Below are positions 9,161-49,598 of a stretch of 64,000 nucleotides of DNA, in pieces. The notes under the pieces were generated by a model. It ran no database searches. It had not been told where the DNA came from and worked only from the letters and a program-made list of their open reading frames with translations. Origin of the DNA: Thiosulfatihalobacter marinus (GTDB taxonomy: Bacteria > Pseudomonadota > Alphaproteobacteria > Rhodobacterales > Rhodobacteraceae). The translations under genes were made by a program, and so were the position numbers. Positions within the stretch are counted from its first letter, which is position 1. The number at the start of each line of letters is the position of its first letter. Location: assembly GCF_016019955.1 (NCBI RefSeq), contig NZ_JAECRZ010000009.1, forward strand, positions 62,001-126,000, written 5' to 3'.

Positions 9161-9174
9161 CTAACGCCTGTTAG
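9161..9174. promoter_or_regulatory. TetR operator copy 1 (CTAACGCCTGTTAG)
   Basis: A palindrome with CTAAC and GTTAG arms around a 4-bp centre, matching the window-wide motif CTAACANNTGTTAG except for G at position 6. A further CTAAC at 9157-9161 overlaps it, giving a possible second register. It lies directly upstream of the tetR start at 9133, where a repressor would block the promoter of the 9.1-2.3 kb operon. Confidence 0.7.
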
Positions 9175-9277
9175 GTTAATAACGCAAATGAGTAAATCGT
9201 CGTGATCGTGCCAGACTAGAGTTTGCGGAAAATTCCGCATTGGCGACCGCCAAGAGGCCGCCCAGACATTAATGTGC

Positions 9278-9308
9278 TTGCCCGGACCCCGTCATCGGGT
9301 CCGGGCAA
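9278..9308 (-). terminator. Hairpin terminator after the SDR gene
   Basis: A perfect 12-bp stem (TTGCCCGGACCC with GGGTCCGGGCAA) around a 7-base loop, starting 6 bases after the stop of the minus-strand SDR gene. There is no strong U-run on the minus strand, so termination may be partial. It separates the thiolase-SDR unit from the tetR-carboxylase operon. Confidence 0.65.
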
Positions 9309-9313
9309 ATGCC

Positions 9314-10144
9314 TTAGATCACGAAACCGCCACCGCAGATGACGTGCTGGCCTGAAATGAAGTTCGATTCCGGCGCACAGAACAGATAGACGGCACCGGC
9401 AGCTTCTTCCGGAGTGCCGACCCGGCCCAGCGGGATCATGCGCTCCATCTGGGACAGGAGATCGGGATTCACGCCGACCTTGATCTCTTTTTCTTCGACC
9501 TTGATCGTGCTGTCGCCATCCGCGCTGCCTTCGGTCAAGCGGGTGCGAATCGGGCCGAAGGCGACGGCGTTGACGTTGACCTTATAGCGGCCCCATTCCT
9601 TGGCCATCGTCCGGGTGACCCCTAGGATACCGGCCTTTGCGGCGGAATAGTTGATCTGGCCAGCATTGCCGCCGGTCCCTGCGATGGACGAGATGTTGAC
9701 CACCTTGCGGAACACCTCTTGCCCGGCGGCGGCCTCTTCCTTGGCCTTGGCGCTGATCACCGGCTGGGCAGCGCGCAGGATCTTGAAAGGTGCCGTCAGG
9801 TGGACGTCGATGATCGCCTGCCACTGTTCGTCGGACATCTTCTGAACGACGCTATCCCAAGTGTAGCCTGCGTTGTTCACGATGATGTCTAACCCGCCAA
9901 AGCTGTCCACGCCGGTCTTGATGAACCGTTCGGCAAAACCGTCTTCGGTGACGCTGCCGGCACAGACCACGGCCTCAGCTCCCATTGCGCGCACCGCCTC
10001 GGCGGTTTCATTGGCCGGATCCGCATCCAGATCGTTGATCACCAGCCGGGCCCCTTCCGAGGCCAGTTTGAGAGCGATTTCGCGGCCAATGCCCCGGCCC
10101 GAGCCCGAGACCAGCGCCACGCGCCCGTCGAGTTTTCCAGTCAT
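9314..10144 (-). CDS. SDR-family 3-hydroxyacyl-CoA/ketoreductase-like dehydrogenase
   Basis: A 276-residue short-chain dehydrogenase of the FabG/hydroxyacyl-CoA type. It has the cofactor motif SGSGRGIG (about 13-20), NNAG at about 90-93, catalytic Ser in NISSIAG, and the YSAAK Tyr-Lys pair, followed by a C-terminal GGGF. An Asp after the second strand (NDLDAD) favours NAD(H). An extended loop with many Lys/Glu residues near 200-220 may close over a CoA substrate. The start has GGGAGGAAT upstream. It is 24 bases downstream of an SCP2-type thiolase, so the pair likely oxidises a 3-hydroxyacyl-CoA and then cleaves the 3-ketoacyl-CoA. Confidence 0.85.
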   Translation of the reverse strand: MTGKLDGRVALVSGSGRGIGREIALKLASEGARLVINDLDADPANETAEAVRAMGAEAVVCAGSVTEDGFAERFIKTGVDSFGGLDIIVNNAGYTWDSVVQKMSDEQWQAIIDVHLTAPFKILRAAQPVISAKAKEEAAAGQEVFRKVVNISSIAGTGGNAGQINYSAAKAGILGVTRTMAKEWGRYKVNVNAVAFGPIRTRLTEGSADGDSTIKVEEKEIKVGVNPDLLSQMERMIPLGRVGTPEEAAGAVYLFCAPESNFISGQHVICGGGFVI

Positions 10145-10168
10145 ATTGATTCCTCCCGAAAGGCGCTA

Positions 10169-11353
10169 TCAGGCTTTTTCATAAAGCGTGGTGACGCAGG
10201 CCCCGCCGAGGCCCAGATTGTGCTGAAGCGCCAGACGTGCGCCATCAACCTGGCGCGCATCTGCCTGGCCGCGAAGCTGCTGAACGAGCTCGGTACATTG
10301 CGCTAGGCCGGTCGCCCCAAGCGGATGGCCTTTGGACAAAAGACCGCCCGACGGGTTGGTCACGTATTTTCCGCCGTAGGTGTTGTCGCCATCATCAACG
10401 AATTTCGCCGCTTCGCCGCGACCGCAAAGGCCAAGCGCCTCATAGGTGATAAGCTCGTTGTGGGCGAAACAGTCGTGCAGTTCGACCACATCCACGTCCT
10501 CGGGCCCGATGCCCGCGTCCTCGTAAACCTGATCGGCGGCGCGCTTGGCCATCGAAAAGCCGACCACTTCGCGCATGTCATGGGCTTCGAAAGTTTCCGG
10601 TCCGTCTGTTGTCATGGCCTGCGCCGCGATCCGAACGGAACTGTCCAATCCGTGCTTGTCGGCGAATTCCTTGGAACAAATGATCGCCGCCGCCGCGCCA
10701 CAGGTTGGCGGACAGGCCATGAGCTTGGTCATGACGCCGGGCCAGACGACCTGGGCGGCCATGACATCTTCCGCCGTCACCTCCTGCCGGAACAGGGCAA
10801 CCGGATTCTTCGCAGCATGTCGGCTGGCCTTGGCGCGGATCTTGGCGAAGGTCTCGACGGGTGTGCCGAACTCGTCCATATGCGCCTTGCCCGCACCGCC
10901 AAAGTACCGCAGTGCCAGCGGGATTTCGGAACGGCCAACCAGATCGTCGGTTTCACTGTCGAATGCCGCAAACGGGCTGACCCGGTCATGGAACATCGCA
11001 CCGATTGCGCCGGGCTGCATCTGTTCGAACCCAAGTGCCAGAGCACATTCGACCGCGCCGCTTTCAACTGCCTGCCTGGCCAGGAACAGGGCGGACGATC
11101 CGGTCGAGCAGTTGTTGTTCACATTCAGAACCGGGATGCCTGTCATTCCGACATGGTACAGGGCGCGCTGACCGCAGGTGCTGTCGCCATAGACATAGCC
11201 AACATAGGCCTGTTGGACTTTATCATAATCCAACCCCGCGTCTGCCAGAGCGGACCGGGTCGCAGCGGTCGCCATCACATCGTAGCTTTCGGATTTTCCC
11301 GGCTTCTGGAACGGGACCATCCCAACGCCTGCAACATAGGCTTTGTCTGTCAT
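10169..11353 (-). CDS. SCP2-type thiolase (lipid-transfer protein family)
   Basis: A 394-residue thiolase of the SCP-x/lipid-transfer branch. The nucleophilic Cys is in NNNCSTGSS, the His is in the NPSGGLLSKGHPLGATG stretch, and the second active-site Cys is in GGACVTT near the C-terminus. This branch commonly cleaves 3-ketoacyl-CoAs with branched or bulky chains, as in sterol side chains and pristanoyl-type chains. The ATG at 11353 follows GGGAGAG; an upstream TTG at 11368 is in frame but less likely. An operator copy sits about 56 bases upstream, placing the gene in the proposed regulon. The SDR behind it probably supplies its substrate. Confidence 0.85.
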   Translation of the reverse strand: MTDKAYVAGVGMVPFQKPGKSESYDVMATAATRSALADAGLDYDKVQQAYVGYVYGDSTCGQRALYHVGMTGIPVLNVNNNCSTGSSALFLARQAVESGAVECALALGFEQMQPGAIGAMFHDRVSPFAAFDSETDDLVGRSEIPLALRYFGGAGKAHMDEFGTPVETFAKIRAKASRHAAKNPVALFRQEVTAEDVMAAQVVWPGVMTKLMACPPTCGAAAAIICSKEFADKHGLDSSVRIAAQAMTTDGPETFEAHDMREVVGFSMAKRAADQVYEDAGIGPEDVDVVELHDCFAHNELITYEALGLCGRGEAAKFVDDGDNTYGGKYVTNPSGGLLSKGHPLGATGLAQCTELVQQLRGQADARQVDGARLALQHNLGLGGACVTTLYEKA

Positions 11354-11408
11354 TTCTCTCTCTCCCAAGTTCGGTCAGGCCACCCTAATCGGTCCGCCAG
11401 CCTATTTT

Positions 11409-11422
11409 CTACCATTTGTTAG
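11409..11422. promoter_or_regulatory. TetR operator copy 2 (one mismatch)
   Basis: CTACCATTTGTTAG matches the CTAACANNTGTTAG motif at all but one constrained position. It lies in the divergent space between the thiolase gene (minus) and the PaaY-like gene (plus), on the thiolase side. Read on the minus strand a TAGAAA -10-like element overlaps it. Confidence 0.7.
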
Positions 11423-11478: not shown

Positions 11479-11507
11479 TTGCGCTATTTTCTAACTTGTG
11501 TTTGTTT
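11479..11507 (+). promoter_or_regulatory. Promoter of the PaaY-like gene with weak operator copy 3
   Basis: TTGCGC (11479-11484), a 17-bp spacer and TTGTTT (11502-11507) form a promoter with the same layout as those at 18603 and 36602. The palindrome-like CTAACTTGTGTTTG occupies 11491-11504, with two mismatches to the motif. The leading TATTTTCTAAC stretch is identical to that before the dehydrogenase at 18671. Confidence 0.5.
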
Positions 11508-11606: not shown

Positions 11607-12218
11607 ATGGCATACTGTTATGAGTTCAAGGGTTTTATACCCGTCGTGCCCGAGGATACATATGTCCACCCCCAGGCCGTTCTGATCGGAAATGTCATCT
11701 TGGGTCATGGATGCTACATCGGCCCCGGAGCAAGCTTGCGGGGCGATTTCGGCAGGATCGTGATCGGGGATGGAGCCAATGTTCAGGACAATTGCATCAT
11801 CCATTCCTTTCCCGGCCGCGACGCCGTGGTGGAAAGCGACGGCCACATCGGCCATGGCGCGATCCTGCACGGTTGCACAGTGGGCCGGAACGCTCTGGTC
11901 GGAATGAATTCCGTCATTATGGATGGTGTAGAGCTTGGGGCGGAATCGATTGTCGGCGCGCAGGCGTTTGTGCGTGGCGAAACCGTGATTCCGCCGCGTT
12001 CGATGGTGGTGGGATCGCCGGCAAAGGTGATCCGCGAGGTCAGCGAGAAAGAAATCGCGTGGAAAACGCGCGGCACCGCGGAATACCAGCAACTTGCGCG
12101 CGACTGTCTGGCCGGATTGACGCCGGTCGAGCCGCTGAAGGCGGTCGAGGCAAACCGGCCCGGCATGGCGGCCTCTGACGTCGTCTCCATTCAGGAGGCG
12201 CGGCGGACATCGTCCTGA
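11607..12218 (+). CDS. PaaY-type hexapeptide-repeat thioesterase / gamma-carbonic-anhydrase-like
   Basis: A 203-residue left-handed beta-helix protein with hexapeptide repeats through about residue 150 ([40 protein letters not shown]). The metal-binding His residues are in IIHSF and GHIGHG. The opening [17 protein letters not shown] and the tail [12 protein letters not shown] match PaaY more closely than other gamma-class carbonic anhydrases. PaaY is a thioesterase that removes dead-end CoA esters in phenylacetate catabolism. The start at 11607 follows AAGGTGG. It stands alone between two minus-strand operons rather than in a paa cluster, so here it may rescue CoA from stalled intermediates of the surrounding pathway. 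Confidence 0.85.
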
Positions 12219-12329: not shown

Positions 12330-13937
12330 TTACAGACGGAAGATCCCGTAGTGCGGATCGTCGATCGGTGCATTGAGCGAGGCAGAAATCGACATGCCAA
12401 GCGCGTTGCGTGTGTCCGCCGGATCGAGGATGCCGTCGTCCCACAATTCCGAGGTCGAGGTATAAGCCTCGACATCGCGCTTGTATTTTTCCAGCACCGG
12501 TTCGCGGATCGCGGCGATTTCTTCTTCGGTCAGCTCTTTGCCTTCGCGCTGAAGCTGCCGAATCTTGACGTCCGCCATGGTATTTGCGGCCTGATCCGCC
12601 CCCATCACGCCGATCTCGGCCTGGGGCCACATGAACAGCGTGCGCGCGTCCCAGGCCCGTCCGCACATCCCGTAGTTGCCGGCCCCGTAAGACGCATTGG
12701 CGATCACGGTAAACTTCGGCACGACCGAGCCGCCCTGCGCCATCAGCATCTTGGCGCCATCCTTGGCGATGCCTCGTTCTTCGTATTCGCGGCCCACCAT
12801 ATAGCCGGTGATGTTCTGGAAAAAGACCAGAGGCGTGCGGTTCTGGTTGCACAACTGCATGAAATGCGCTGCCTTGAGCGAACTGTCGTTGAACAGCACC
12901 CCGTTGTTGGCAAGGATGCCGACCTTGTAACCCCAGATATGGGCAAAGCCGCAAACCATCGTGGTGCCATAGTCGGGCTGGTATTCGTGAAAGCGCGAGC
13001 CATCGACGATCCGCGCCAGAACCTCGCGCATATCAAACTGGGTTTTCCGGTCCTTGGGGATGATCCCATAAAGCTCCTTGGGGTCGTAGTATGGCTCTTC
13101 AAAAGCGGCGGTTTCGATGATCGTTTTCGGGGTGCGCATCCATTGGCTGACAATCTCGCGCGCCAGTGAAAAGGCGTGTTGTTCGGTCGCGGCGCGATAG
13201 TCGCCGGTGCCCGATACCGAGGTGTGCATGACCGCGCCGCCAAGCTCCTGAACACCGACCTCTTCGCCGGTAGCCGCCTTGACCAGCGGGGGACCGCCAA
13301 GGAAAATCGCGCCTGTGCCTTCGATGATGATGTTGTAGTCGCTCAGCGTCGGCACATAGGCACCGCCAGCCGTGCAGTGTCCGCCGACCACGGCAATCTG
13401 CGGGATATTGGCCTGGCTCAGCTTGACCTGGTTGCGGAACACCCGCCCGCCCAGATACCGGTCGGGAAACACCCCGTGCTGCAGCGGCAGGAAACCGCCC
13501 GCGCTGTCGCAGATATGGATGACCGGCAGACGGTTTTCCAGCGCGACATCCAGAAGACGCACGACCTTTTTCACGGTATGCGGATACCAGGCACCGCCCT
13601 TGACGCTGGCATCATTGGCATGAATGGCGACCTCGCGGCCTTGCACGATGCCGATCCCCGTAACCACGCCTGCGCCGGGCACCACCCCGTCATATTCACG
13701 ACAGGCCGCCAGGGTTGAAAATTCCAAAAACGGAGTGCCGGGGTCCAGCAGCAGTTTCAACCGCTCGCGCACGCCCAGTTTGTTCTGGCGGGCGAGGCGG
13801 TCGATATCGCGTTGCGGACGTTCGAAACGCGCCGCGTGCTGGCGAGCGTGGAATTCCTTCAGCCGTTCAGACATGGCGGCGAAATTTGCCTTGTAGTCGG
13901 CGGCATTGGTGTCGATCTGACTTTCAATTCTGCGCAT
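12330..13937 (-). CDS. Acyl-CoA carboxylase beta subunit, geranyl/methylcrotonyl-CoA type
   Basis: A 535-residue carboxyltransferase: HCTAGGAYVPT in the N-half, NASYGAGNYGMCGRAWDART in the C-half, ending YGIFRL. Distinctive wording such as HANDASVKGG and SQANIPQIAVVGG recalls AtuC, the beta subunit of geranyl-CoA carboxylase. The neighbouring AtuA-family gene supports an acyclic-terpene-like role, but the substrate remains inference. The start at 13937 follows GGAGGAGG and lies 2 bases after the carrier-protein stop. It is the last gene of the 18.5-12.3 kb minus-strand operon, and its biotin partners are encoded separately by the two upstream genes. Confidence 0.87.
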   Translation of the reverse strand: MRRIESQIDTNAADYKANFAAMSERLKEFHARQHAARFERPQRDIDRLARQNKLGVRERLKLLLDPGTPFLEFSTLAACREYDGVVPGAGVVTGIGIVQGREVAIHANDASVKGGAWYPHTVKKVVRLLDVALENRLPVIHICDSAGGFLPLQHGVFPDRYLGGRVFRNQVKLSQANIPQIAVVGGHCTAGGAYVPTLSDYNIIIEGTGAIFLGGPPLVKAATGEEVGVQELGGAVMHTSVSGTGDYRAATEQHAFSLAREIVSQWMRTPKTIIETAAFEEPYYDPKELYGIIPKDRKTQFDMREVLARIVDGSRFHEYQPDYGTTMVCGFAHIWGYKVGILANNGVLFNDSSLKAAHFMQLCNQNRTPLVFFQNITGYMVGREYEERGIAKDGAKMLMAQGGSVVPKFTVIANASYGAGNYGMCGRAWDARTLFMWPQAEIGVMGADQAANTMADVKIRQLQREGKELTEEEIAAIREPVLEKYKRDVEAYTSTSELWDDGILDPADTRNALGMSISASLNAPIDDPHYGIFRL

Positions 13938-13939
13938 GG

Positions 13940-14443
13940 TCACTCCTCCTCCGGAGCCAATTGGGCCAGGATGTCTTTCAGACCAAAACTGTCGCCTTCG
14001 GCGAATGGCATTTCGGCAACGACCCCGTCGCGCGGCGCCGTCAGTGTGGTTTCCAACTTCATGCTTTCGATCACCAGAAGTGGCTGGCCTTCTTCAACCG
14101 CATCGCCGGGTTTAACCGCAACTGACACCACGACACCCGGCATGGGCGCCACCAATCGGTCGTCGCTCGCGCCACCGTCGCTTCCGGCCAGGCGTTCGGC
14201 GGGATCAACCCGCCCGACTTCGTAGGTTCGCCCGTCCATGTGCACAAAAGTTGCTTCCGGCCCCACGGCCAGTCGCAATTCGCGCACAACACCCTTGGCC
14301 CGCAGCTTGTAACCGCCCGGCAGACCCGTCGGATCCAATTGGCAGGCAACAGCGCCAGTGGGGGTGTTGAGCACGAACCGGCTGCCATCATGACCCAGCC
14401 AGCAATCAGTCTCTTCTCCGTCGATCTGAAAAATCCGTTGCAT
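13940..14443 (-). CDS. Separate biotin carboxyl carrier protein
   Basis: A 167-residue protein whose C-terminal half is a biotinyl domain with the acceptor ESMKLE, Lys at about residue 129, and the usual MPGVVVSV entry near residue 100. The N-terminal 90 residues resemble the BT-type linker (FVHMDGRTYEV) that in most methylcrotonyl-type carboxylases is fused behind the biotin carboxylase domain. Here it is a separate gene whose ATG overlaps the biotin carboxylase stop (ATGA), so the normally single alpha subunit is split in two. The other two carboxylases in this window keep the fused form. Confidence 0.88.
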   Translation of the reverse strand: MQRIFQIDGEETDCWLGHDGSRFVLNTPTGAVACQLDPTGLPGGYKLRAKGVVRELRLAVGPEATFVHMDGRTYEVGRVDPAERLAGSDGGASDDRLVAPMPGVVVSVAVKPGDAVEEGQPLLVIESMKLETTLTAPRDGVVAEMPFAEGDSFGLKDILAQLAPEEE

Positions 14444-15912
14444 CAGTTTCTCCACCCACCCATCTTGCGGTACATTTCCGGTATCTGCATTACGTCACTC
14501 ACCAGGCGCTCGTCCGATAGGGCCGCCGCCGCTATCAGCAAGTCAGAGACATCTTCGCCCGGCGCGGTTAGCGTTTCGGATTGTTCAGCCAGGAAGCCAG
14601 TTGAAACGTCACCAGAGGCGAAATCCGGATGTGCAAGGATTGCATCCAGGTAACCGGTGTTGGTCGTTACCCCGAGAATCACATAGCTTTGCACCGCGCT
14701 CCGGGCACGGGCGATGGCCTGCGCGCGATCCGGGCCATGCACGATCAGCTTGGACAACATCGGGTCGAAGTCGGTCGTTACCTTGCCGCCATCCAGAATG
14801 CCGCTGTCTACGCGGATCCCCTCGCCCTGGGGTTCGTCCAGCAGCAGGATATTGCCGATCGCGGGGCGAAAATCGGCGGTCGCATCCTCGGCACAGATGC
14901 GCAGTTCGATCGAGTGTCCGGTTTGGGGAATATCCGCCTGCACGGCGCTCAGCCCGTCGCCCGCCGCGACACGCAGCTGCTCGGCAACCAGATCAAAGCC
15001 GGTTACCATCTCGGTCACCGGATGTTCGACCTGAAGGCGGGTGTTCATTTCCAGGAAATAAAAGGCCCCATCCTGTGCATAGATGAATTCGACAGTCCCT
15101 GCCCCGCGGTATTTGACGGCGCGGGCAATTCCGGCAGCGGTCTCGCAGATCTCATCCCGTTGCTCGGGGGTCAGCGCCGGTGACGGCGTTTCCTCGATAA
15201 TCTTCTGGAACCGGCGCTGGATCGAACATTCACGTTCCCAGAAATGGACCACGTTGCCCTGTCCGTCGCCCATCACCTGCACCTCGATATGGCGCGGGCG
15301 TTCGATATAGCGTTCGACGAAAAGCCGCCCGTCGCCGAAATATCGTTCGCCTTCGCGGCGCGCGGTTTCGATTTCGGTCTCCAGCGTGCTGTCCTCGCGT
15401 ACGACGCGCATGCCCTTGCCGCCACCGCCGGCCGAGGGCTTGATGAGCAGCGGATAGCCAACGGCGCGGGCGCGTTCGACAAAGCTCGCCGGATCATCAT
15501 CCTCGATGGCCGAGGGGGCGACGGGAAACCCGCGTTCCTCGACGAAGGCGCGGGCGCGGACCTTGTCCCCCATCAGGTCGATGACCTCGGACGTCGGGCC
15601 GACAAAGGTCACTCCGGCTTTTTCCAGCGCCGCGACAAAACCGGCATTCTCTGACAGAAAGCCATAGCCGGGATGAACCGCGTCCGCGCCGATCCCTTTG
15701 GCGGCTTCGACGATCTGAGGAATATCGAGATAGGCGGCCACGGGCGTCGGGCCGTCGATCATCACGACCTCATCTGCGATCAGATGCGCCGGCCCCTCTT
15801 GCTCGGCGACATGACGCAACACGGCAGTCGCAAGCCCGCGGGCCTTAGCGGTGCGCAACACGCGCGCCGCGATCTCGCCCCGATTGGCGACCAGGAGTTT
15901 CGAAATGGTCAT
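14443..15912 (-). CDS. Biotin carboxylase subunit without biotinyl domain
   Basis: A 489-residue ATP-grasp biotin carboxylase. Motifs: LVANRGEIAARV at the N-terminus, HPGYGFLSENAGF, ATP loop SAGGGGKGMR, and FLEMNTRLQVEHPVTEMVTG. It stops after the biotin carboxylase C-domain plus about 35 residues and has no AMKM/SMKL site; that is supplied by the next gene through an ATGA overlap. It transfers bicarbonate-derived carboxylate to the carrier's biotin, for use by the carboxyltransferase at 12330-13937. It starts 12 bases downstream of the AtuA-family gene. Confidence 0.9.
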   Translation of the reverse strand: MTISKLLVANRGEIAARVLRTAKARGLATAVLRHVAEQEGPAHLIADEVVMIDGPTPVAAYLDIPQIVEAAKGIGADAVHPGYGFLSENAGFVAALEKAGVTFVGPTSEVIDLMGDKVRARAFVEERGFPVAPSAIEDDDPASFVERARAVGYPLLIKPSAGGGGKGMRVVREDSTLETEIETARREGERYFGDGRLFVERYIERPRHIEVQVMGDGQGNVVHFWERECSIQRRFQKIIEETPSPALTPEQRDEICETAAGIARAVKYRGAGTVEFIYAQDGAFYFLEMNTRLQVEHPVTEMVTGFDLVAEQLRVAAGDGLSAVQADIPQTGHSIELRICAEDATADFRPAIGNILLLDEPQGEGIRVDSGILDGGKVTTDFDPMLSKLIVHGPDRAQAIARARSAVQSYVILGVTTNTGYLDAILAHPDFASGDVSTGFLAEQSETLTAPGEDVSDLLIAAAALSDERLVSDVMQIPEMYRKMGGWRN

Positions 15913-15924
15913 GGTGTCGTCCTC

Positions 15925-17724
15925 TTAGTTCCGGGCCGCGGCATTCAGTCCGTCACGTGCGGCCAGATCGGCTGGCACGGGAATTTCGATATCAAGCAGC
16001 ATCTGCGCGAACCCTTTGCCCTGCGGGTCTATGCGGACCGAGGCGATGCCGCCACCGCCAAGCGATTCATGCAACAGGAAATTCAGCGAATGGCTTCCAG
16101 GCAAGTCGAACCGTTCTACCCTGCCGTCGCAGACATGGGCGAAATAGTCCTTCACCACCTCTTCGCTGAGAGCCGAGCGGATATATGGTAGGTAGTCCGG
16201 CTTGCGCGCGAGGATGCCGATATTGGCGATGTCCCCCTTGTCGCCCGAGCGGCCCCAGGCCAAATCGACGAGGCGGACCTTGACAACGTCCGGACCGGGC
16301 TCGCGGCTATCTGCGGGCGGTGCGGCAGGCGGATCAAGGTGGACTGGCGTAGTGGCCACGCTCACGGGCACATCCTTGCCGTCGACCTCGACCGCGACGG
16401 GGGTTTCGGCCTTGCTCTGAAGGAAGGAAAATAGACGGACCACCGGCTGCACCTTTGGCCGTCCGGCGAAGAACCCGGTCAGACCCTGCGCGGTCGAAAT
16501 CGCCATCGGTGCGATTTCGCCGGCAAAGATGTTCAGCGCGGCGCGATCGTCATGGACCGCGCCGATCTTGAGCACCACCTCGCGGGTCCGGGCGCGCGCA
16601 TTTGCGCCGTAGGCCGCCTCGGCCCCCAGCACCTCGACGCTGACCTGCCGGAAATCTCCCATGTTGCGGTCGCGGAAAATCCGGCGACAGCGGGTCAGGA
16701 TCGCCTCGGCCACACGTTCGGCCTTGGCGGGTGCGTCAATCGCGGCCAGTGTCAGGGTAGAGACCGCGCGCCAGCCATCGGCATGGGTCGCCGACACCTT
16801 GTAGCTGTCGGTGCGCCCAAGCCCCCTGCCGCCCTTGACCAGCACCCGGTCGGGTCCGACCTGTTCCAGGGTGACCCCGGACCAGTCGCAGATCACGTCG
16901 GGCAACAGGTAGGCGCGCGGGTCCCCGATTTCATAGAGCATCTGCTCTCCGACTGACCCGGGCACGACCAGCCCGCCGGTGTCAGGCGTCTTGGTCATGA
17001 TGAAACTGCCGTCTTCGGACACCTCGACGATGGGCATGCCCATATTGTCCCAACCCGGCACGTCCTGCCAGTCGGTGAAGTTGCCGCCGGTTCCCTGGGG
17101 GCCGCATTCGATCAGGTGGCCGGCCAGCGATCCCTGGCTGAGCTTGTCCCAGTCATCGTCGCCCCAACCGTATTCATGCATCAGGGGACCAAGCGCGACC
17201 GCGCTGTCGGCGCAGCGTCCGGTGATCACGATGTCGGCCCCGGCATCCAGCGCGGCAGCGATGGGGCGGGCACCCAGATAGGCATTCATGCTCCAGATAT
17301 CATCTGGAAATGCGACACCCGAGAACATTTCCGTCTGACCGTTTTTGCGAATTTCATCGGCCCTGGGCAACAGGTCATCGCCTAGCACGACTCCGACGGA
17401 CAGATCGATCCCGGCCTGGGCGGCGGCTTTGGCAAGCGCATCGCTGCAGCCACGCGGGTTCACGCCCCCTGCATTGGCAACGACCTTGATCCCTTTTGCC
17501 TTGATATCCGACAACCAGGGTGCCAGCGCCTTGACGAAGTCCGGCGCATAGCCCGACTCGGGCGCTTTGGCGCGGGCCCGCGCCATCAGCGACATTGTCA
17601 CCTCTGCCAGATAGTCAAACACCAGATAGTCGATCTCGCCCTTTGAGACCAGTTGACCGATCGCTTCCGGCGTATCGCCCCAGAAACCCGACGCGCATCC
17701 GATGCGCAGCTTTCGTTCCGACAT
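15925..17724 (-). CDS. AtuA-family acyclic terpene utilisation protein
   Basis: A 599-residue protein of the DUF1446/AtuA family. The N-terminal domain (to about 440) opens with RIGCASGFWGDTPEA and contains the conserved Asp/Glu-rich DYLAEVTMSLMARA. A C-terminal ferredoxin-like domain starts near residue 475 and holds WGRSGDKGDIANIGI. AtuA is encoded in the citronellol/geraniol operon of pseudomonads; its reaction is not established. Its position here between a crotonase and a geranyl/methylcrotonyl-type carboxylase repeats that context. A strong GGGAGGAGAGG ribosome site precedes the ATG at 17724. It is the best single pointer that this operon deals with isoprenoid-like acids. Confidence 0.85.
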   Translation of the reverse strand: MSERKLRIGCASGFWGDTPEAIGQLVSKGEIDYLVFDYLAEVTMSLMARARAKAPESGYAPDFVKALAPWLSDIKAKGIKVVANAGGVNPRGCSDALAKAAAQAGIDLSVGVVLGDDLLPRADEIRKNGQTEMFSGVAFPDDIWSMNAYLGARPIAAALDAGADIVITGRCADSAVALGPLMHEYGWGDDDWDKLSQGSLAGHLIECGPQGTGGNFTDWQDVPGWDNMGMPIVEVSEDGSFIMTKTPDTGGLVVPGSVGEQMLYEIGDPRAYLLPDVICDWSGVTLEQVGPDRVLVKGGRGLGRTDSYKVSATHADGWRAVSTLTLAAIDAPAKAERVAEAILTRCRRIFRDRNMGDFRQVSVEVLGAEAAYGANARARTREVVLKIGAVHDDRAALNIFAGEIAPMAISTAQGLTGFFAGRPKVQPVVRLFSFLQSKAETPVAVEVDGKDVPVSVATTPVHLDPPAAPPADSREPGPDVVKVRLVDLAWGRSGDKGDIANIGILARKPDYLPYIRSALSEEVVKDYFAHVCDGRVERFDLPGSHSLNFLLHESLGGGGIASVRIDPQGKGFAQMLLDIEIPVPADLAARDGLNAAARN

Positions 17725-17745
17725 ATTCCTCTCCTCCCCGTTTGA

Positions 17746-18531: not shown

Positions 18532-18602
18532 TTCCGAAGCTCCCCCCCCCTCTGTATTGCAGGACACCGCGCTTTCTTACGTCAGGTCGTCAAAAGCTTG
18601 GC

Positions 18603-18631
18603 TTGATCTATTTTCTAACATATGTTTGATT
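18603..18631 (+). promoter_or_regulatory. Promoter with TetR operator copy 4
   Basis: TTGATC (18603-18608), a 17-bp spacer and TTGATT (18626-18631) flank CTAACATATGTTTG (18615-18628), one mismatch from the motif. Binding would cover the spacer and -10. It reads toward the acyl-CoA dehydrogenase at 18671. The minus-strand crotonase operon starts 72 bases to the left and could share control. Confidence 0.7.
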
Positions 18632-19885: not shown

Positions 19886-19898
19886 GGGGGACGAGACA

Positions 19899-21098: not shown

Positions 21099-21107
21099 GG
21101 GCGGAAC

Positions 21108-22758: not shown

Positions 22759-22770
22759 AGGAAAGATCGC

Positions 22771-25886: not shown

Positions 25887-25955
25887 AGCCATGACAGCAG
25901 CGCCGGACACCAGGCGTTGCTGCCAAACCGTGCCAAAAGAGTTACCTCCCCGACT

Positions 25956-34515: not shown

Positions 34516-34541
34516 AGTTTCCCCCTTGCCCGAGCCTCGGT

Positions 34542-38626: not shown

Positions 38627-38635
38627 GGACGAAGC

Positions 38636-39796: not shown

Positions 39797-39823
39797 TCGC
39801 CACGGCTTGGAACGGAGAACGAC

Positions 39824-42819: not shown

Positions 42820-42829
42820 GGAGCGAACC

Positions 42830-44836
42830 GTGAAAATCAAGACGCTTCTGATCGCCAACCGCGGCGAAATTGCCTGCCGGATCGCGCGCACTGCGCGGGC
42901 CAGCGGTATCATTCCCGTCGGCGTGCATTCGCAGGCCGACGCCAATGCCCTGCATGTCCGCGAGATTGGCAAATCTGTCTGTATCGGCGCCGGACCTGCA
43001 TCCGAGAGCTATCTGAAAATCGACGCGGTGATTGCCGCTGCGCAATCAGTGGGCGCGGATGCGATCCATCCCGGTTATGGCTTTCTGGCCGAAAACCCCG
43101 ATTTTGCTCGTTCGGTCGAAGCCGCCGGCATGATCTTCATGGGGCCGACGCCTGAAACGCTTGAACGTTTCGGCGACAAGGCCAGCGCCAAAGAGGCCGC
43201 CGTGGCGGCCAGCGTCCCGGTGATTTCGGGCGCCGAAGGTGCGCGGTCCGATCCCGAGCAGATTGCCGAGGAGGTGCGCCAAATGGGCCTGCCGGTGCTG
43301 CTCAAGGCGGTCGGCGGCGGTGGTGGGCGCGGACAACGGCTCGTCACTGACGAAACCACGCTGGTCGAGGACATCGAAGGCGCGCTGCGCGAAGCAAAAT
43401 CCACCTTCGGCTCCGAAGGGCTGCTGTTGGAGCGTTTCCTGCCCGAGGCGCGCCATGTTGAAGTGCAGATCGCAGGTGACGGCAAAGGCCATGTGGTGCA
43501 TCTGTTCGAACGCGATTGCACGCTTCAGCGCCGCCACCAGAAGGTCATCGAGGAAGCCCCGGCCTGGGGTCTGCCCCGAACGCTTCTGGACGACATCGCA
43601 CGCGACGCGGTGCGCTTGGGCGAAACGCTGGACTATCGCGGGCTGGGCACGGTCGAATTTCTGGTCGCGGGTGGCGAGTATTTCTTCCTTGAGGTGAACC
43701 CGCGCATTCAGGTGGAACATCCCGTCACCGAAGCGATCACCGGGCTGGACCTTGTCGCGCTTCACCTGCGGATTGCCGAAGGCGCGGGCCTTGGACTGGT
43801 GCAGGACGATCTGACGATCAACGGCCACGCGGTCGAGGCGCGGCTTTACGCCGAAGATCCGGCGATGCAATTCGCCCCGTCGACGGGCACGCTCTCCACG
43901 CTCAGCCTGCCATCGGGCCTGCGCATCGACAGCGGCGTCGAAGAAGGCGATGCCGTCACGCCCTACTACGACCCGATGATCGCCAAGCTGATCGTGCACG
44001 CGCCCGACCGGGAAACCGCATTGGCACGTCTGGCCACGGCGCTTGATCATGTCGCGGTCGAAGGTGTCGAGACCAATCGCGCCTTTCTAACGGCGCTGGC
44101 GCGAAACCATGAATTCGAACGGATGCAGGTGCATACCCGCTGGATCGACGGCAGGCTGGATGAGCTGACACAGGCACCCGGCCTGACCCGCCCCGATCTG
44201 TGGAAGGCGACCGCTGCCATTCTCTTCGTGACCCAGTCGCGCAGCGACACAAACGCCAATCCCTGGACCAACCGTGATGCCTTTACCGGCTGGCGGCTTG
44301 GACTGGGCGGCGATGCGATTGAAGCGGGGCAGCGCGTGACGCTTACCGATTCTGACGAGGTATCCGAAGAACTGCGCGTCAGTCCTGTCAAACCGGGTGC
44401 CAAGTACACCATCCATTCGGAGAAAGGCGAGGCGCTGATACTGTCGGCACGTGAACTGACCCCGGGCCGTTGGCGTGTCGGCGAAGGCGACACCGTCCAT
44501 CTGATCGACGCGCGCCTGCACGCGGGCGTGATCGAACTGGATACGCCCGAAGGCCGCCTGGTATTTCGGCCCGCCGCGCCCCTTGCCTTTGCCGGCGACA
44601 ATGCCGCGGCGGATCGCGCCGTGACCTCTCCGCTGACCGGCATGATTGTCGAAATCAAGGTCTCCGATGGTCAGAGCGTGGCCGAAGGCGACGTGGTCGC
44701 GGTCATGGAATCCATGAAACTCGAAATCTCGATCCGGGCGGCCGCGGCCGGGATCGCCAGCAATATATCCGTCTCGAATGGGGACATGGTCGATCGCGGC
44801 CAGGTCATCGCCGAGATCCTGCCATCCGAGGAGTGA
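42830..44836 (+). CDS. Acyl-CoA carboxylase biotin carboxylase/BCCP subunit, third set
   Basis: A 668-residue fused alpha subunit. LLIANRGEIACRI at the N-terminus, HPGYGFLAENPDF, ATP loop VGGGGGRGQ, FLEVNPRIQVEHPVTE, and a C-terminal biotinyl domain with MESMKLE, Lys near residue 630. FLEVNPRIQ and FLAENPDF vary from the FLEMNTRLQ and FLSENAGF of the first two sets, again pointing to a separate lineage. GTG start at 42830 after GGAGCG. Works with the beta subunit upstream. Confidence 0.9.
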   Translation: MKIKTLLIANRGEIACRIARTARASGIIPVGVHSQADANALHVREIGKSVCIGAGPASESYLKIDAVIAAAQSVGADAIHPGYGFLAENPDFARSVEAAGMIFMGPTPETLERFGDKASAKEAAVAASVPVISGAEGARSDPEQIAEEVRQMGLPVLLKAVGGGGGRGQRLVTDETTLVEDIEGALREAKSTFGSEGLLLERFLPEARHVEVQIAGDGKGHVVHLFERDCTLQRRHQKVIEEAPAWGLPRTLLDDIARDAVRLGETLDYRGLGTVEFLVAGGEYFFLEVNPRIQVEHPVTEAITGLDLVALHLRIAEGAGLGLVQDDLTINGHAVEARLYAEDPAMQFAPSTGTLSTLSLPSGLRIDSGVEEGDAVTPYYDPMIAKLIVHAPDRETALARLATALDHVAVEGVETNRAFLTALARNHEFERMQVHTRWIDGRLDELTQAPGLTRPDLWKATAAILFVTQSRSDTNANPWTNRDAFTGWRLGLGGDAIEAGQRVTLTDSDEVSEELRVSPVKPGAKYTIHSEKGEALILSARELTPGRWRVGEGDTVHLIDARLHAGVIELDTPEGRLVFRPAAPLAFAGDNAAADRAVTSPLTGMIVEIKVSDGQSVAEGDVVAVMESMKLEISIRAAAAGIASNISVSNGDMVDRGQVIAEILPSEE

Positions 44837-44840
44837 TGAA

Positions 44841-45800
44841 ATGAGCGACTTTCCCAAATTCGTAGAATTTCGTGAAGAAGGCCCGCGTGAGGGTTTTCAG
44901 ATCGAAAAGAAGATTTACCCGATCGAAGAGCGGATCGAACTGATCGACATGCTCAGCGAAACCGGCTTGAAACGCATTCAGGTCGGCAGCTTTGTCAGCC
45001 CGAAATACGTTCCTCAGATGGCGGACACCGGCGAGTTGTTCCAGCGTATCAAGCGCAAACCGGGCGTGAACTACACATCGCTGTGGCTGAACGACAAAGG
45101 GTTTCGCAAGGCCCTGACCGCGCATGAGGTCGATATCGACCCGCGTCTGCTGTTCTATCCTTCCGAAGCATTCGCCCAATCGAACAACAATTGTTCCTCG
45201 GCCGAGATGCGGGAAAAACAACGTGACTGGGTCCGTCTTTACAAGGAAGAGGGATATACCGTCGACGCGGCCTATGTGATGACCGCCTTCGGCTGCAACC
45301 TCGAGGGCCCCATCCCCCAAGAACGCATCTTGGACGATTTCCGCTTTATCCTTCAGCTATGCGAAGAAGAGAACATCCCCGTGCCGATCCTCGTGGTCGC
45401 CGACACCATGGGTTGGGGAAACCCCGAGGCGGTCAAACGGATGATCGGCGCCCTGCGCGAATTGGCGCCCGAGGCGCGCATCGGTATGCACATCCATGAC
45501 ACACGTGGGCTGGGGATCGCCAACGTTTATGCGGCCCTGTCGATGGGCGTGGACATGTTCGAAAGCTCCGTCGCCGGTCTTGGCGGCTGTCCTTTCGCGG
45601 GCCACGGCCACGCGCGCGCCGCAGGAAATGTCTGCACCGAGGATTCAGTGTTCCTGTGTCACGAGCTCGGCATCGAAACCGGCATTGATCTGGACAAGCT
45701 GATCGCAGCGGCGGTCAAAGCAGAAGAGATCATCGGTGTGCCGCTCATGGGCCGGGTCATGCACACCGGCGGGTTGGACAAATACCGCAAGTCACGCTGA
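44841..45800 (+). CDS. HMG-CoA-lyase-like TIM-barrel lyase
   Basis: A 319-residue HMGL-family aldolase/lyase. The catalytic Arg is kept in GPREGFQIEK (Arg16), but the family Asp beside it is Glu17. The metal-binding pair is in GMHIHDT and the active-site Cys loop reads GGCPFAGHGHA. The family cleaves tertiary 3-hydroxyacyl-CoAs such as HMG-CoA to acetyl-CoA plus a ketone. The Asp-to-Glu change may fit a different substrate. It starts 4 bases after the biotin carboxylase stop, as expected for carboxylation-hydration-cleavage. Confidence 0.84.
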   Translation: MSDFPKFVEFREEGPREGFQIEKKIYPIEERIELIDMLSETGLKRIQVGSFVSPKYVPQMADTGELFQRIKRKPGVNYTSLWLNDKGFRKALTAHEVDIDPRLLFYPSEAFAQSNNNCSSAEMREKQRDWVRLYKEEGYTVDAAYVMTAFGCNLEGPIPQERILDDFRFILQLCEEENIPVPILVVADTMGWGNPEAVKRMIGALRELAPEARIGMHIHDTRGLGIANVYAALSMGVDMFESSVAGLGGCPFAGHGHARAAGNVCTEDSVFLCHELGIETGIDLDKLIAAAVKAEEIIGVPLMGRVMHTGGLDKYRKSR

Positions 45801-45812
45801 GGGAGCAAGAAG

Positions 45813-46727
45813 ATGACAAAAGCACTTGACGGAAAGGTCGTTCTGGTCACCGGGGCCGGCGGTGGGATCGGGCGTGATATCGCCTTGATGGCAGCCGCAG
45901 AAGGCGCCGCCGTGGTGGTCAATGATCTGGGCGCATCCCTGAAAGGCACCGGTCAGACAGAAACTGCGGCGCAGAAAGTCGTCGAAGAGATCAAGGCGGC
46001 GGGCGGCGATGCGATCGCCGATGGCGGCAACGTCACCGATCCGGACGCCGCGCGCGCGATGATCGAGGCGGGTGTCAAGGAATTCGGCCGCATCGACGCG
46101 GTGGTGAACAACGCCGGCATCCTGCGCGACGGGTTCTTCCACAAAATGACCTACGAGGATTTCGACGCGGTGGTGAAGGTCCATCTCTATGGCGCCTTCA
46201 ACACCAGCCGCGCGGCGGCCGATTATTTCCGCGAGCAAGAGGGCGGTGCTCTGGTGCACATGACCTCGACCTCGGGGCTGATCGGCAATCTGGCGCAGGC
46301 GAATTATTCGGCGGCAAAGCTGGGCATCGCGGCCTTCTCGAAATCGGTAGCGCTCGACCTGAAACGCTGGAACGTGCGGTCAAACTGCATCGCGCCCTTC
46401 GCCTGGAGCCGGATGATCTCGTCTATCAAGACAGACACCCCGGAACAGGTGGCACGGGTCGAAAAGATCAAGGAGATGACACCGGCCAAGGTTGCACCGA
46501 TGGCCTGTTTCCTGATGAGCGACCGCGCGGCTGACGTGTCAGGACAAATCTTTGCGGTTCGCAAGAACGAGATCTTCCTGTTCAACCAGCCCCGCCCGGT
46601 GCGGTCGGTTCATTCCGATGATGGCTGGACCGCCGATGAAATCGCCGAGCGCGCCATTCCCGCGCTCAAATCACAGTTCACGCCGCTCGAAGTTTCGGCG
46701 GATGTCTTTTCGTGGGATCCGGTTTGA
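45813..46727 (+). CDS. SDR of the peroxisomal multifunctional-enzyme type
   Basis: A 304-residue short-chain dehydrogenase. GAGGGIGRD, NDLGASLKGTG, NNAGILRDGFFHKM and the YSAAKLG catalytic stretch match the 3-hydroxyacyl-CoA dehydrogenase domain of Fox2/17beta-HSD4, which handles branched and bile-acid-type CoAs. A C-terminal extension (after about 235) contains FLFNQPRPVRS, as in that family. A stop-start overlap (TGATG) couples it to the citryl-CoA-lyase-like gene. Confidence 0.83.
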   Translation: MTKALDGKVVLVTGAGGGIGRDIALMAAAEGAAVVVNDLGASLKGTGQTETAAQKVVEEIKAAGGDAIADGGNVTDPDAARAMIEAGVKEFGRIDAVVNNAGILRDGFFHKMTYEDFDAVVKVHLYGAFNTSRAAADYFREQEGGALVHMTSTSGLIGNLAQANYSAAKLGIAAFSKSVALDLKRWNVRSNCIAPFAWSRMISSIKTDTPEQVARVEKIKEMTPAKVAPMACFLMSDRAADVSGQIFAVRKNEIFLFNQPRPVRSVHSDDGWTADEIAERAIPALKSQFTPLEVSADVFSWDPV

Positions 46728-47521
46728 TGGGAAAACGCAAAGAAAAAATCAGCTCCGACATTGCCTGGAGCACCTCTGACAAGATCAGCGTGCGTGGGCT
46801 CGATCTGCCCAACGAGATCCTGGGCCACATGAACCTCGGCGATCTGGCGTTTCTGCAGTTGACGGGTCGCAAGGCCACGCCCGAGGAAAGCCGCGTCTTT
46901 AACGCTATCGTCATTACCTTGGTCGAACATGGTATCACGCCCTCGGCCCTGGCGGCGCGGATGACCTATATGGGGGCGCCGGAATCGCTTCAGGCGGCTG
47001 TGGCGGCTGGCTTGTGCGGGCTGGGCACCGTCTTTGTCGGTTCTATGGAGGGTGCCTCGAAGATGCTTTACGAGGCACTGCCACAGGACAAGTTGGGCAC
47101 CGGTGTCGATCTGGATGCGCTGGCCGTCGAGACGGTGGAAAAATTCCGCGCCCGCAAGATGATCGTGCCGGGGCTGGGCCATCCGGTGCACAAGCCGGTC
47201 GATCCGCGCACACCTCGCCTGTTCCAGATCGCTGCCGAGAACGGCAAGTCCGGTGAATACATCGAGTTGATCCAGAAAATTCAGGCCGTTGCCGAAGAAA
47301 AATCGGGTAAGATGCTGCCGATCAACGCCACCGGGGCGATCGGAGCGATCTGCTGTGAATTTGGCTTCCCCTGGAAGATCGTGCGGGGCTTTGGCGTCAT
47401 GGCACGCGCCATCGGTCTGGTCGGTCATATCCTCGAAGAGAGCGAAAACCCGATTTCCTATGAGCTTTGGCAGCGTGCCGAGCAGGAAATTCTTGAAACG
47501 TCGGGTCCGGGAGCGAAGTAA
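46727..47521 (+). CDS. Citrate-synthase-fold citryl-CoA lyase-like protein
   Basis: A 264-residue protein of the citrate synthase superfamily, much shorter than citrate synthase (over 400). It keeps the catalytic-loop His in PGLGHPVHKPVDPR (about residue 152) and the C-terminal FGFPWKIVRGFGVMARAIGL seen in citryl-CoA lyases, which split citryl-CoA into acetyl-CoA and oxaloacetate. No citrate lyase or citryl-CoA synthetase genes are near. In this operon it more likely cleaves or forms another tertiary 3-hydroxyacyl-CoA; that is inference. Confidence 0.8.
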   Translation: MGKRKEKISSDIAWSTSDKISVRGLDLPNEILGHMNLGDLAFLQLTGRKATPEESRVFNAIVITLVEHGITPSALAARMTYMGAPESLQAAVAAGLCGLGTVFVGSMEGASKMLYEALPQDKLGTGVDLDALAVETVEKFRARKMIVPGLGHPVHKPVDPRTPRLFQIAAENGKSGEYIELIQKIQAVAEEKSGKMLPINATGAIGAICCEFGFPWKIVRGFGVMARAIGLVGHILEESENPISYELWQRAEQEILETSGPGAK

Positions 47522-47524
47522 CCG

Positions 47525-48688
47525 ATGCAGACGTCAGCCCCAGACACTCACACCGATCTGCGCGACGCCTTGCGCGCACTTTGCGCGCAGTTTCCGCCAG
47601 AGTATCATCGCAAGTTCGGCGAAGACGAAACCTACCCCGAGGAATTCGTCGATGCGCTGACCCGCGAGGGCTGGCTTGCCGCGATGATCCCAGAGGAATA
47701 CGGTGGCTCGGGTCTGGGGTTGACCGAAGCCTCGATCATCATGGAGGAGGTGAACCGCTGCGGCGGAAACGCGGGCCATTGCCACGGGCAGATGTATAAC
47801 ATGGGCACGCTGCTGCGGCATGGTTCGGATGAGCAAAAGCAGAAATACCTGCCCGGCATCGCCAGCGGCGCGTTGCGCCTGCAATCCATGGCCGTGACCG
47901 AACCGACAACCGGGACCGACACCACCAAACTGAAGACCACCGCGGTCAAGAAAGGTGACCGGTATGAGATCAATGGCCAGAAGGTCTGGATCAGCCGTAT
48001 CCAGCATTCCGACCTGATGATCCTGCTGGCACGCACCACGCCGCTGAGCGAGGTCAAGAAAAAGTCGCAGGGCCTGTCGATCTTTATGGTCGATCTGAAA
48101 GAGGCTATCGGCAACGGGATGGAGGTCCGCCCCATCGCCAATATGCCCGGCCACGAAACCAATGAAGTGTTTTTCGACAACCTGGAAATCCCCGCCGAGA
48201 ACCTGATCGGCACCGAGGGGCGCGGGTTTTACCATATTCTTGACGGGTTGAACGCCGAACGGACCCTGATTGCGGCGGAATGTATCGGTGATGGATACTG
48301 GTTCGTCGACAAAGCCCGCGCCTATGCCGGTGACCGCGTGGTCTTTGACCGTCCCATCGGCCAGAACCAAGGCGTGCAATTCCCTATCGCCAGGTCTTAT
48401 GTGAACATCGAGGCCGCCAATCTGATGCGCTTTGAAGCCTGCAGGCGGTTCGATGCTGGGCTGGATTGCGGAGCACAGGCGAATATGGCTAAGCTGCTGG
48501 CTTCGGAGGCCAGCTGGGAAGCGGCCAATGCCTGCATTCAGACCCATGGCGGCTTCGGTTTCGCACGGGAATACGATGTCGAGCGCAAGTTCCGCGAGGC
48601 GCGCCTCTATCAGGTCGCCCCGATCTCGACCAACCTGATCCTGTCATATGTCGGAGAACATATCCTCGGCATGCCAAGATCGTTCTGA
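47525..48688 (+). CDS. Acyl-CoA dehydrogenase (FadE-like subgroup)
   Basis: A 387-residue dehydrogenase. TEPTTGTDTTK replaces the usual EPGAGSD motif, WISRIQHSD follows, a Glu is in LNAERTLIA at the isovaleryl-type base position, and it ends EHILGMPRSF. It is related to the gene at 38636. Starts 3 bases after the lyase gene. The altered FAD-side motif is unusual for the class. Confidence 0.83.
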   Translation: MQTSAPDTHTDLRDALRALCAQFPPEYHRKFGEDETYPEEFVDALTREGWLAAMIPEEYGGSGLGLTEASIIMEEVNRCGGNAGHCHGQMYNMGTLLRHGSDEQKQKYLPGIASGALRLQSMAVTEPTTGTDTTKLKTTAVKKGDRYEINGQKVWISRIQHSDLMILLARTTPLSEVKKKSQGLSIFMVDLKEAIGNGMEVRPIANMPGHETNEVFFDNLEIPAENLIGTEGRGFYHILDGLNAERTLIAAECIGDGYWFVDKARAYAGDRVVFDRPIGQNQGVQFPIARSYVNIEAANLMRFEACRRFDAGLDCGAQANMAKLLASEASWEAANACIQTHGGFGFAREYDVERKFREARLYQVAPISTNLILSYVGEHILGMPRSF

Positions 48689-48699
48689 AGGCTAGGATT

Positions 48700-49539
48700 A
48701 TGGGTGAGATCGACCTTGACGCGCTGGCGCCCTGGCTGGGACGCACCGAGACTAAGGAAGATGTTCTGACGCACGGGCTGATCGACAAATTCCGCGCCAC
48801 GCTCGGTCCGCATCTTTGGGATGGAGCGGGCGATGTCCCGCTGGGAATTCATTGGTGCCTTGCCCTTGATACCGTGCCAGCGACCGCCCTGTCAGAAGAC
48901 GGCCATGCCGCGAGGGGTGGATTTCTGCCCCCTGTTCCGCTGCCCGCCCGCATGTGGGCTGGCGGCGATGTTACGCATATCGCGCCGCTGAAAATCGGCG
49001 AAACCATCACCCGACGCTCTTCGATCAGGGATATTGTGGCCAAGCAGGGCCGTAGTGGACCATTGGTCTTTGTGACCGTCGAACATGAGTATCTGAGTGG
49101 CAACCGGCTTTGTATCCGGGAGCAGCAAACGATCGTTTATCGTGAGATTTCCGCCCCCCGCACGGGCGAGAGCGCACCTGACGCGGGTGACCCCACCACG
49201 CTCAGATCGACCCTGACACCGGATCCTGTTCTGCTGTTTAGCTATTCGGCGCTGACGTTCAATGCCCATCGCATTCACTATGACCACATCTACGCCACCG
49301 AAACCGAAGCCTATTCCGGGCTTGTTGTCCATGGCCCCTTGCAAGCCACGCTACTTCTGAATCTGGCGGCGGATGCGTTGAAAACATCGCCTCACCGGTT
49401 TTCTTTTCGCGGACTCGCGCCACTCACCCTGCCCTGCGAATTGCAACTGCACAATGAAGAGACCGGCACCTCCGGGACAGTCTGGTGTCAGGATCAAAAC
49501 GGTCTTCGAAGCTTTTCCGCAGAGTACGCGGCTGTCTGA
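48700..49539 (+). CDS. MaoC/HTD2-type hydratase (itaconyl/mesaconyl-CoA hydratase-like)
   Basis: A 279-residue double-hotdog protein. A FAS1-like N-terminal hotdog (to about 150) is followed by the catalytic hotdog with LTFNAHRIHYDHIYA and GLVVHGPLQATLL, the hydratase-2 type Asp/His site. Family members include mesaconyl-C4-CoA and itaconyl-CoA hydratases, which make hydroxylated dicarboxylic CoAs such as citramalyl-CoA. As the last gene of the carboxylase-lyase operon it may hydrate a branched dicarboxyl-CoA. Confidence 0.83.
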   Translation: MGEIDLDALAPWLGRTETKEDVLTHGLIDKFRATLGPHLWDGAGDVPLGIHWCLALDTVPATALSEDGHAARGGFLPPVPLPARMWAGGDVTHIAPLKIGETITRRSSIRDIVAKQGRSGPLVFVTVEHEYLSGNRLCIREQQTIVYREISAPRTGESAPDAGDPTTLRSTLTPDPVLLFSYSALTFNAHRIHYDHIYATETEAYSGLVVHGPLQATLLLNLAADALKTSPHRFSFRGLAPLTLPCELQLHNEETGTSGTVWCQDQNGLRSFSAEYAAV

Positions 49540-49568
49540 TCGTTTTTCTTCGGTAGCGAATTCAATTG

Positions 49569-49598
49569 TTGACCAAATTTTCTAACATCTGTTAGGAA
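49569..49598 (+). promoter_or_regulatory. Promoter with perfect TetR operator copy 7
   Basis: TTGACC (49569-49574), an 18-bp spacer and TAGGAA (49593-49598) flank CTAACATCTGTTAG (49582-49595), a perfect motif copy. It should control the LIV-type ABC transporter/ligase operon, making uptake part of the regulon. Confidence 0.78.

Follow-up and report, generated by a model that had tools for sequence, protein, structure and literature searches.

A shared palindromic site marks a putative acyl-CoA catabolic regulon, probably read by a double TetR protein, on a plasmid-like contig of Thiosulfatihalobacter marinus

Results

Sites, operons, and promoter geometry

The stretch of DNA analyzed here, called the window, comprises 64,000 nucleotides from Thiosulfatihalobacter marinus (bases 62001 to 126000 of the 164-kb contig C66, in an assembly totaling 4.16 Mb). 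It carries acyl-coenzyme A (acyl-CoA) catabolic operons, the gene for a double TetR regulator, and the gene for a single TetR paralog, TetR1, and between them lie copies of the 14-mer palindrome CTAACANNTGTTAG (Table 1). Operons are inferred from runs of co-directional genes, and Pfam scanning covered part of the open reading frames (ORFs).

With up to two mismatches, the palindrome occurs at exactly seven places in the window, all of which a first-pass annotation of this DNA had given correctly. Dinucleotide shuffles of the window (n = 100) yielded a mean of 0.34 places and at most 3, and none reached seven. Across the whole assembly, the eight places with at most one mismatch are all confined to C66; allowing two mismatches gives 24 places, 11 on C66 and 13 elsewhere, the latter fewer than the approximately 21 expected when the window shuffles are extrapolated to the remaining genome. 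Four of the C66 sites lie past the window, at the window-equivalent positions 69210, 72871, 76472 (CTAACAAGTGTTTT), and 89070 (CTAACGGGCGTTAG), and a scan of C66:1-42000 at up to two mismatches revealed no site. The first-pass annotation had proposed one acyl-CoA regulon of 40 kb; the single regulon stands, and its extent has to be enlarged to 11 sites over 80 kb (9161 to 89083 in window coordinates).

The reversed pattern occurs genome-wide at 6 places with at most one mismatch and at 117 with at most two, near or above the motif's own counts. Reading GATTGTNNACAATC, it is a palindrome abundant in its own right and hence a poor estimate of chance. For whole-genome counts this control was set aside, and chance was judged by shuffles and placement. 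Far commoner than the operator at its 117 places, GATTGTNNACAATC may be a motif of its own. Another palindrome, TTAACA(G/A)CTGTTAA, present in five copies (C3:5261 and 5319; C27:1740, 3285, and 4059), looks like a different repeated site.

All 11 sites are fully noncoding, compared with about 4% of noncoding sequence in the 80-kb stretch by our own gene list, in which start codons were set from sequence and, in a few cases, by reference to the annotation of the copy on plasmid pTHAF37_a. The distance from the end of a site to the start codon that it faces is 16 to 155 bp. A TTG, taken as the -35 box, starts 10 to 14 bp upstream of the 14-mer on 14 of the 15 gene-facing sides versus 1 of the 7 sides without a gene (Fisher P = 6e-4; background, 7%), a comparison scored after a first scan of the same sites and with gene directions from our own calls. 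The possible -10 box starts with the last three bases of the palindrome, 15 to 19 bp further on, and reads TAG on 13 of the 15 facing sides (TAGATT, TAGAAA, and the like) and TTG on two; TAG at this position is no independent test because the palindrome itself ends in TAG. Since the operator occupies the spacer between the putative -35 and -10 boxes, simple repression is likely. The earlier claims that every copy is intergenic and that promoter boxes surround five of the sites were both borne out; the possibility, also raised there, that sites are no more frequent near acyl-CoA genes than by chance was examined as well, and the regulon survived it.

Table 1. Putative operators, regulators, and operons of the cluster (window coordinates; mismatches relative to CTAACANNTGTTAG)
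Feature	Position	Strand	Sequence, content, or context
Operator 1	9161..9174		CTAACGCCTGTTAG, one mismatch; 27 bp before the start of TetR1 and its carboxylase operon; counterpart in genome G138
Operator 2	11409..11422		CTACCATTTGTTAG, one mismatch; 54 bp before the lipid-transfer-type thiolase/short-chain dehydrogenase/reductase (SDR) operon
Operator 3	11491..11504		CTAACTTGTGTTTG, two mismatches; before the PaaY/CaiE-like gene
Operator 4	18615..18628		CTAACATATGTTTG, one mismatch; divergent promoters of the AtuA/carboxylase and acyl-CoA dehydrogenase operons
Operator 5	25047..25060		CTAACAAATGTTAG, exact; divergent promoters of the double TetR gene and the SDR/acyl-CoA ligase operon
Operator 6	36614..36627		CTAACATTTGTTAG, exact; between the dienoyl-CoA-reductase-like operon and the long acyl-CoA dehydrogenase/carboxylase/lyase operon
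Operator 7	49582..49595		CTAACATCTGTTAG, exact; before the branched-chain-type ATP-binding cassette (ABC) transporter/AMP-ligase operon
Site 8	69210 (beyond window)		Transglutaminase-like, MaoC, dehydrogenases
Site 9	72871 (beyond window)		OB-fold protein, thiolase, MaoC, CoA-transferase one way; two CoA-transferases the other way
Site 10	76472 (beyond window)		An acyl-CoA dehydrogenase
Site 11	89070 (beyond window)		SDR; further down ABC ATPase, binding protein, hydratase, electron-transfer flavoproteins
Operon behind TetR1	2934..8568	-	Carboxyltransferase, enoyl-CoA hydratase, biotin carboxylase-biotin carboxyl carrier protein (BCCP), acyl-CoA dehydrogenase
TetR1, single TetR paralog	8504..9133	-	TetR_C_24
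Lipid-transfer-type thiolase and SDR	9314..11354	-	
PaaY/CaiE-like hexapeptide protein	11607..12218	+	290 bits, below the PaaY cutoff of 319.6
AtuA/carboxylase operon	12330..18532	-	Enoyl-CoA hydratase, AtuA, split carboxylase (biotin carboxylase, BCCP, carboxyltransferase)
Acyl-CoA dehydrogenase operon	18671..23654	+	Two acyl-CoA dehydrogenases, SDR, enoyl-CoA hydratase, two 4HBT thioesterases
Double (tandem) TetR regulator, 454 amino acids	23636..25000	-	Two TetR_N and two TetR_C_24 domains
SDR/acyl-CoA ligase operon	25126..29976	+	SDR, acyl-CoA ligase, NmrA-like, HTH_18 regulator, thioesterase
Dienoyl-CoA-reductase-like operon	32995..36542	-	Old yellow enzyme/2,4-dienoyl-CoA-reductase-like enzyme, AMP-ligase
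Long dehydrogenase/carboxylase/lyase operon	36669..49539	+	Acyl-CoA dehydrogenases, hydratase, PaaK-like ligase, carboxylase (both chains), 3-hydroxy-3-methylglutaryl-CoA (HMG-CoA)-lyase-like, SDR, citryl-CoA-lyase-like, dehydratase
Uptake operon	49751..57415	+	Branched-chain-type ABC uptake system, AMP-ligase, SDR

Two TetR paralogs of the cluster

The protein encoded at 23636 to 25000, whose double nature the first-pass annotation had not noted, matches PF00440 in two stretches with 128.3 bits (gathering cutoff, 24), which places it in the TetR family. Its halves match each other at 86 of 209 aligned positions and have the same Pfam C-terminal domain. Two nearly alike recognition helices would face palindromic sites. 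The predicted fold of the whole protein is closest to Mce3R, with two TetR units in one chain folded together, and that of each half resembles FadR, KstR2, and AibR. TetR1 scores 65 bits against PF00440; aligned over 209 positions, it shares 70 residues with one half and 80 with the other.

Distribution of gene and site in relatives

Among the loci of the best 80 of 226 relatives (1.26 Mb), 162 sites with at most one mismatch were found and none with the reversed control. In 78 of these 80, a site with at most two mismatches stands no more than 160 bp ahead of the double TetR gene; the two misses are L086, at a contig edge, and L097, from Acidocella. At loci whose double TetR is 53 to 64% identical to ours, the neighboring dehydrogenases, AtuA, and ligases are mostly 74 to 94% identical and the thioesterases 64 to 91%; lower values were seen in the TetR1 operon of L099 (63 to 70%) and in the unrelated-looking neighbors at L098 (44 to 46%). 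All of these loci except the Acidocella one retain the site ahead of the gene. Counterparts of all 11 sites, with variable centers, are present in G138, a member of another genus, and of 9 of the 11 in the stretches of G044 that were read.

Within the family, the double TetR is encoded in 4 of 149 genomes, which hold 5, 5, 6, and 1 exact sites; of the other 145 genomes, 138 lack an exact site and 7 hold 8 in total. The flanks of these eight were inspected. Several share CTAACATATGTTAG amid further TTAG/CTAA repeats, and a comparison of the surrounding ORFs with 46 window proteins yielded a single weak match (SDR, 29%), so we attribute these sites to another regulator or to chance. L108 to L112 (G001, G105, G015, and G077) have single CTAACATATGTTAG sites and no double TetR match, with further TTAG/CTAA repeats flanking, and the CTAACATATGTTAG sites are perhaps the operator of another regulator.

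Nineteen carrier genomes, our choice out of the 80, were searched whole. Each has 4 to 8 places of CTAACRNNYGTTAG, 119 in all, versus 38 for the reversed control (positions seen in part). A TetR1 ortholog of at least 62% identity is encoded in 15 of the 19; two Bradyrhizobium genomes have only 41 to 42% relatives, and in Sulfitobacter G152 and Acidocella G164 the only TetR1 matches are to the double TetR halves.

Two further relatives were rejected. The one in Polaromonas JS666 is a single TetR, and no such site (up to two mismatches) occurs in 16.7 kb. The one on Rhodococcus oxybenzonivorans pRB98 is a double TetR, but with a different palindrome: CCTAATC-ca-GATTAGG, among others, stands in its divergent promoter (L147:7688-7703). 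That protein is 29.5% identical to ours, adjoins HMG-CoA-lyase, thiolase, and OB-fold genes, and is possibly an actinobacterial counterpart with a CTAA half-site.

Carboxylases and substrate class

The three carboxyltransferases of the cluster score 575 to 603 bits against the two best methylcrotonyl-CoA carboxylase chains (3u9r and 8j4z), 419 to 433 against geranyl-CoA carboxylase, and at most 291 against most chains named propionyl-CoA carboxylase. The top band also includes AccD1 of Mycobacterium tuberculosis (4q0g, 537 to 626 bits) and one chain named propionyl-CoA carboxylase (9tps, 574 to 596 bits). By sequence, the class is clearly methylcrotonyl-like, with the scores fixing the class and not the substrate. 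AtuA, which together with an enzyme of the geranyl-CoA carboxylase class would mark the acyclic terpene utilization (atu) pathway, is matched at E = 1e-144. Another carboxyltransferase of the same class, 50% identical to the cluster's, is encoded on contig C11 and could serve leucine, which makes leucine degradation less likely as the sole role of the cluster. On pTHAF37_a, a BioY biotin transporter gene adjoins the biotin-dependent carboxylase operon (L136:49720-50000).

Discussion

Our analysis indicates that a single operator almost certainly defines one acyl-CoA catabolic regulon, and we consider the double TetR, with good confidence, to be the protein that reads it. The full reading, a self-contained catabolic regulon on a conjugative-plasmid-like contig that is read by the double TetR, has in our estimate a probability of roughly 0.77. 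In this scenario, the halves of the double TetR would fold into a pseudodimer within one polypeptide, whose two nearly alike recognition helices would read the two CTAACA half-sites. The bound protein would cover the spacer and the start of the -10 box, in one direction or, at divergent promoters, in both, shutting off transcription, its own gene included, until an acyl-CoA of the pathway releases it and opens all operons together. A single signal common to all operons, as the first-pass annotation supposed, is an inference: the operator precedes the genes of both TetR paralogs, and a second signal might enter through either of them.

Several observations weigh against this reading. G061, whose double TetR is 54% identical, has a single exact site. 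In Acidocella G164, five sites are scattered on four contigs, none of them directly before the double TetR gene. Repression of the double TetR gene by its own product is less secure than that of the SDR operon, since the -35 TTG points toward this gene in only 26 of the 78 relatives with a site there and toward the SDR in 69 of 78. Among the 11 sites, the minus side of 36614 faces a gene yet lacks the TTG, the plus side of 76472 has a TTG but faces no gene, and the site at 69210 ends 16 bp before a start codon, which is tight for the promoter model. Finally, two TetR paralogs lie beside the sites, and co-occurrence does not cleanly separate them because 15 of the 19 carriers also have the TetR1 ortholog.

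The strongest alternative builds on this last point. That TetR1, itself under the operator, shares the operator role has a chance that we place slightly short of even, and the same goes for the two-input switch that it would allow, in which the double TetR and a TetR1 homodimer compete for the same 14-mers and answer two different intermediates. The helix of TetR1, IKAGSIYYHF, differs little from either helix in the double TetR, and a site stands just upstream of TetR1 here, in G138, in G044, and in most of the carriers whose places were listed. On the other hand, such helices are commonly alike among TetRs, and Sulfitobacter G152 has seven places (those seen being three on L061) yet no TetR1 ortholog at E = 1e-30. 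A more radical version, with TetR1 as the main regulator and the double TetR having another target or only a minor role, seems improbable to us. Single TetRs on palindromes are the usual case, and TetR1 lies in the cluster 27 bp behind a site, but it is missing or only 41 to 42% alike in 4 of the 19 site-bearing carriers, whereas a site directly precedes the double TetR gene in nearly all relatives; in one further case, the family genome G031, a 54% TetR1 relative without a double TetR match coincides with zero exact sites.

An activator of the CRP/FNR type is a far less probable reader. The idea arises from the TAACANNTGTTA core, which turns up in the PrfA literature and is shared by the box of Listeria PrfA, a CRP-like protein; however, the cluster proteins scanned with Pfam (part of the ORFs) include no such domain, a site between -35 and -10 is where such an activator would block, and TetR genes co-occur with the sites. 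Chance palindromes or a nonregulatory repeat spread with the DNA, for which the genome-wide frequency of the reversed control and the shared descent of the cluster copies could be cited, can be practically dismissed given the shuffles, the confinement to one contig and to noncoding DNA, half-sites that stay fixed while centers change, and -35 boxes on the gene-facing sides.

Returning to the double TetR as the reader, its nearest precedent is Mce3R of M. tuberculosis, a double TetR repressor whose structure was called the first of its kind, whose halves are said to come from distinct TetR subgroups, and which binds 25-bp asymmetric, nonpalindromic sites (PMC11667970); another report likewise describes its motif as no classical palindrome (PMC4482099). 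By predicted fold, our protein shares the double TetR architecture, and it departs from Mce3R in both other respects, with similar halves of one C-domain type, nearly equal helices, and palindromic putative sites. As with AtuR/RdmA of Pseudomonas, a TetR repressor, here a putative one, stands beside atu-type genes and an inverted repeat lies near -10; unlike the protein described here, AtuR is a single TetR, with the operator AGCAAGCGCTTGG plus its complement (PMC9973270). By operator, the regulon does not belong with AtuR, its site being CTAACANNTGTTAG and not AGCAAGCGCTTGG, for which the window was not searched.

The acyl-CoA-responsive TetR repressors, which an acyl-CoA ligand releases from DNA, include FadR of Bacillus, KstR2, AibR, PsrA, FadP, and LiuQ, single TetRs working as homodimers. 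The system described here is like them in its presumed role in acyl-CoA catabolism, and the predicted fold of each half is like that of FadR, KstR2, and AibR. A tabulation of fatty-acid and branched-chain regulons of Proteobacteria, in the part accessible, finds LiuQ and FadP unique to betaproteobacteria among the regulators studied and names no double TetR (PMC5343134). Among the matches listed, the open-access literature contains no report of the CTAACANNTGTTAG motif with a TetR, in line with the first-pass annotation, which had not recognized it as a named regulator site, nothing relevant on double TetRs besides Mce3R, and nothing on this cluster under atu-type genes in Roseobacter relatives.

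Three methylcrotonyl-class carboxylases together with AtuA and lyases suggest a beta-methyl-branched, isoprenoid-like acid as the substrate. AtuA and the HMG-CoA-lyase-like and citryl-CoA-lyase-like enzymes would fit the repeated removal of beta-methyl branches, and an acyclic isoprenoid acid is our best guess, at about even odds.

C66 also looks like a conjugative plasmid by its gene content. It encodes a relaxase, a type IV coupling protein, and VirB/Trb-type proteins (L139:7790-12117 and L140:10568-19950). Plasmid pTHAF37_a of Sulfitobacter sp. THAF37 carries the cluster with its gene order unchanged, with a double TetR 99.8% identical to ours and eight sites (up to two mismatches) in the 120 kb read. 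At E = 1e-40, the double TetR gene is found in 42 plasmid records, and identical proteins are encoded by a Ruegeria pomeroyi strain and Thalassobius vesicularis; the identical proteins and plasmid copies suggest recent transfer.

Taken to its furthest, and offered only tentatively, as one joint claim that we find less probable than either version of TetR1 sharing, the system would be a portable plasmid-borne regulon in which a symmetric single-chain TetR pseudodimer binds a true palindrome, opposite to Mce3R, and shares it with TetR1; two acyl-CoA sensors would then control about 60 to 70 genes for an undescribed pathway for beta-methyl-branched acids that travels through Rhodobacterales, Hyphomicrobiales, and beyond. 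Double TetRs are little studied, and this family would represent a second type, different in behavior and rich in natural operators, its close phylogenetic link making DNA reading by a single-chain TetR directly testable. The analysis also puts forward a probable regulator, together with the member operons, for a large catabolic island widely shared by mostly marine bacteria, and the promoters at the 11 sites offer readouts for finding the substrate.

Two further observations may be added. Bases 12 to 28 kb of C66 carry a DNA phosphorothioation set, DndB, DndC, DndD, and DndA, followed by PbeA- and PbeC-type genes (L139:12232-18453 and L140:3680-8045). On a plasmid of Roseibium sp. Sym1, an IS3 transposase and a group II intron reverse transcriptase lie inside the conserved cluster (L148:32876-35736).

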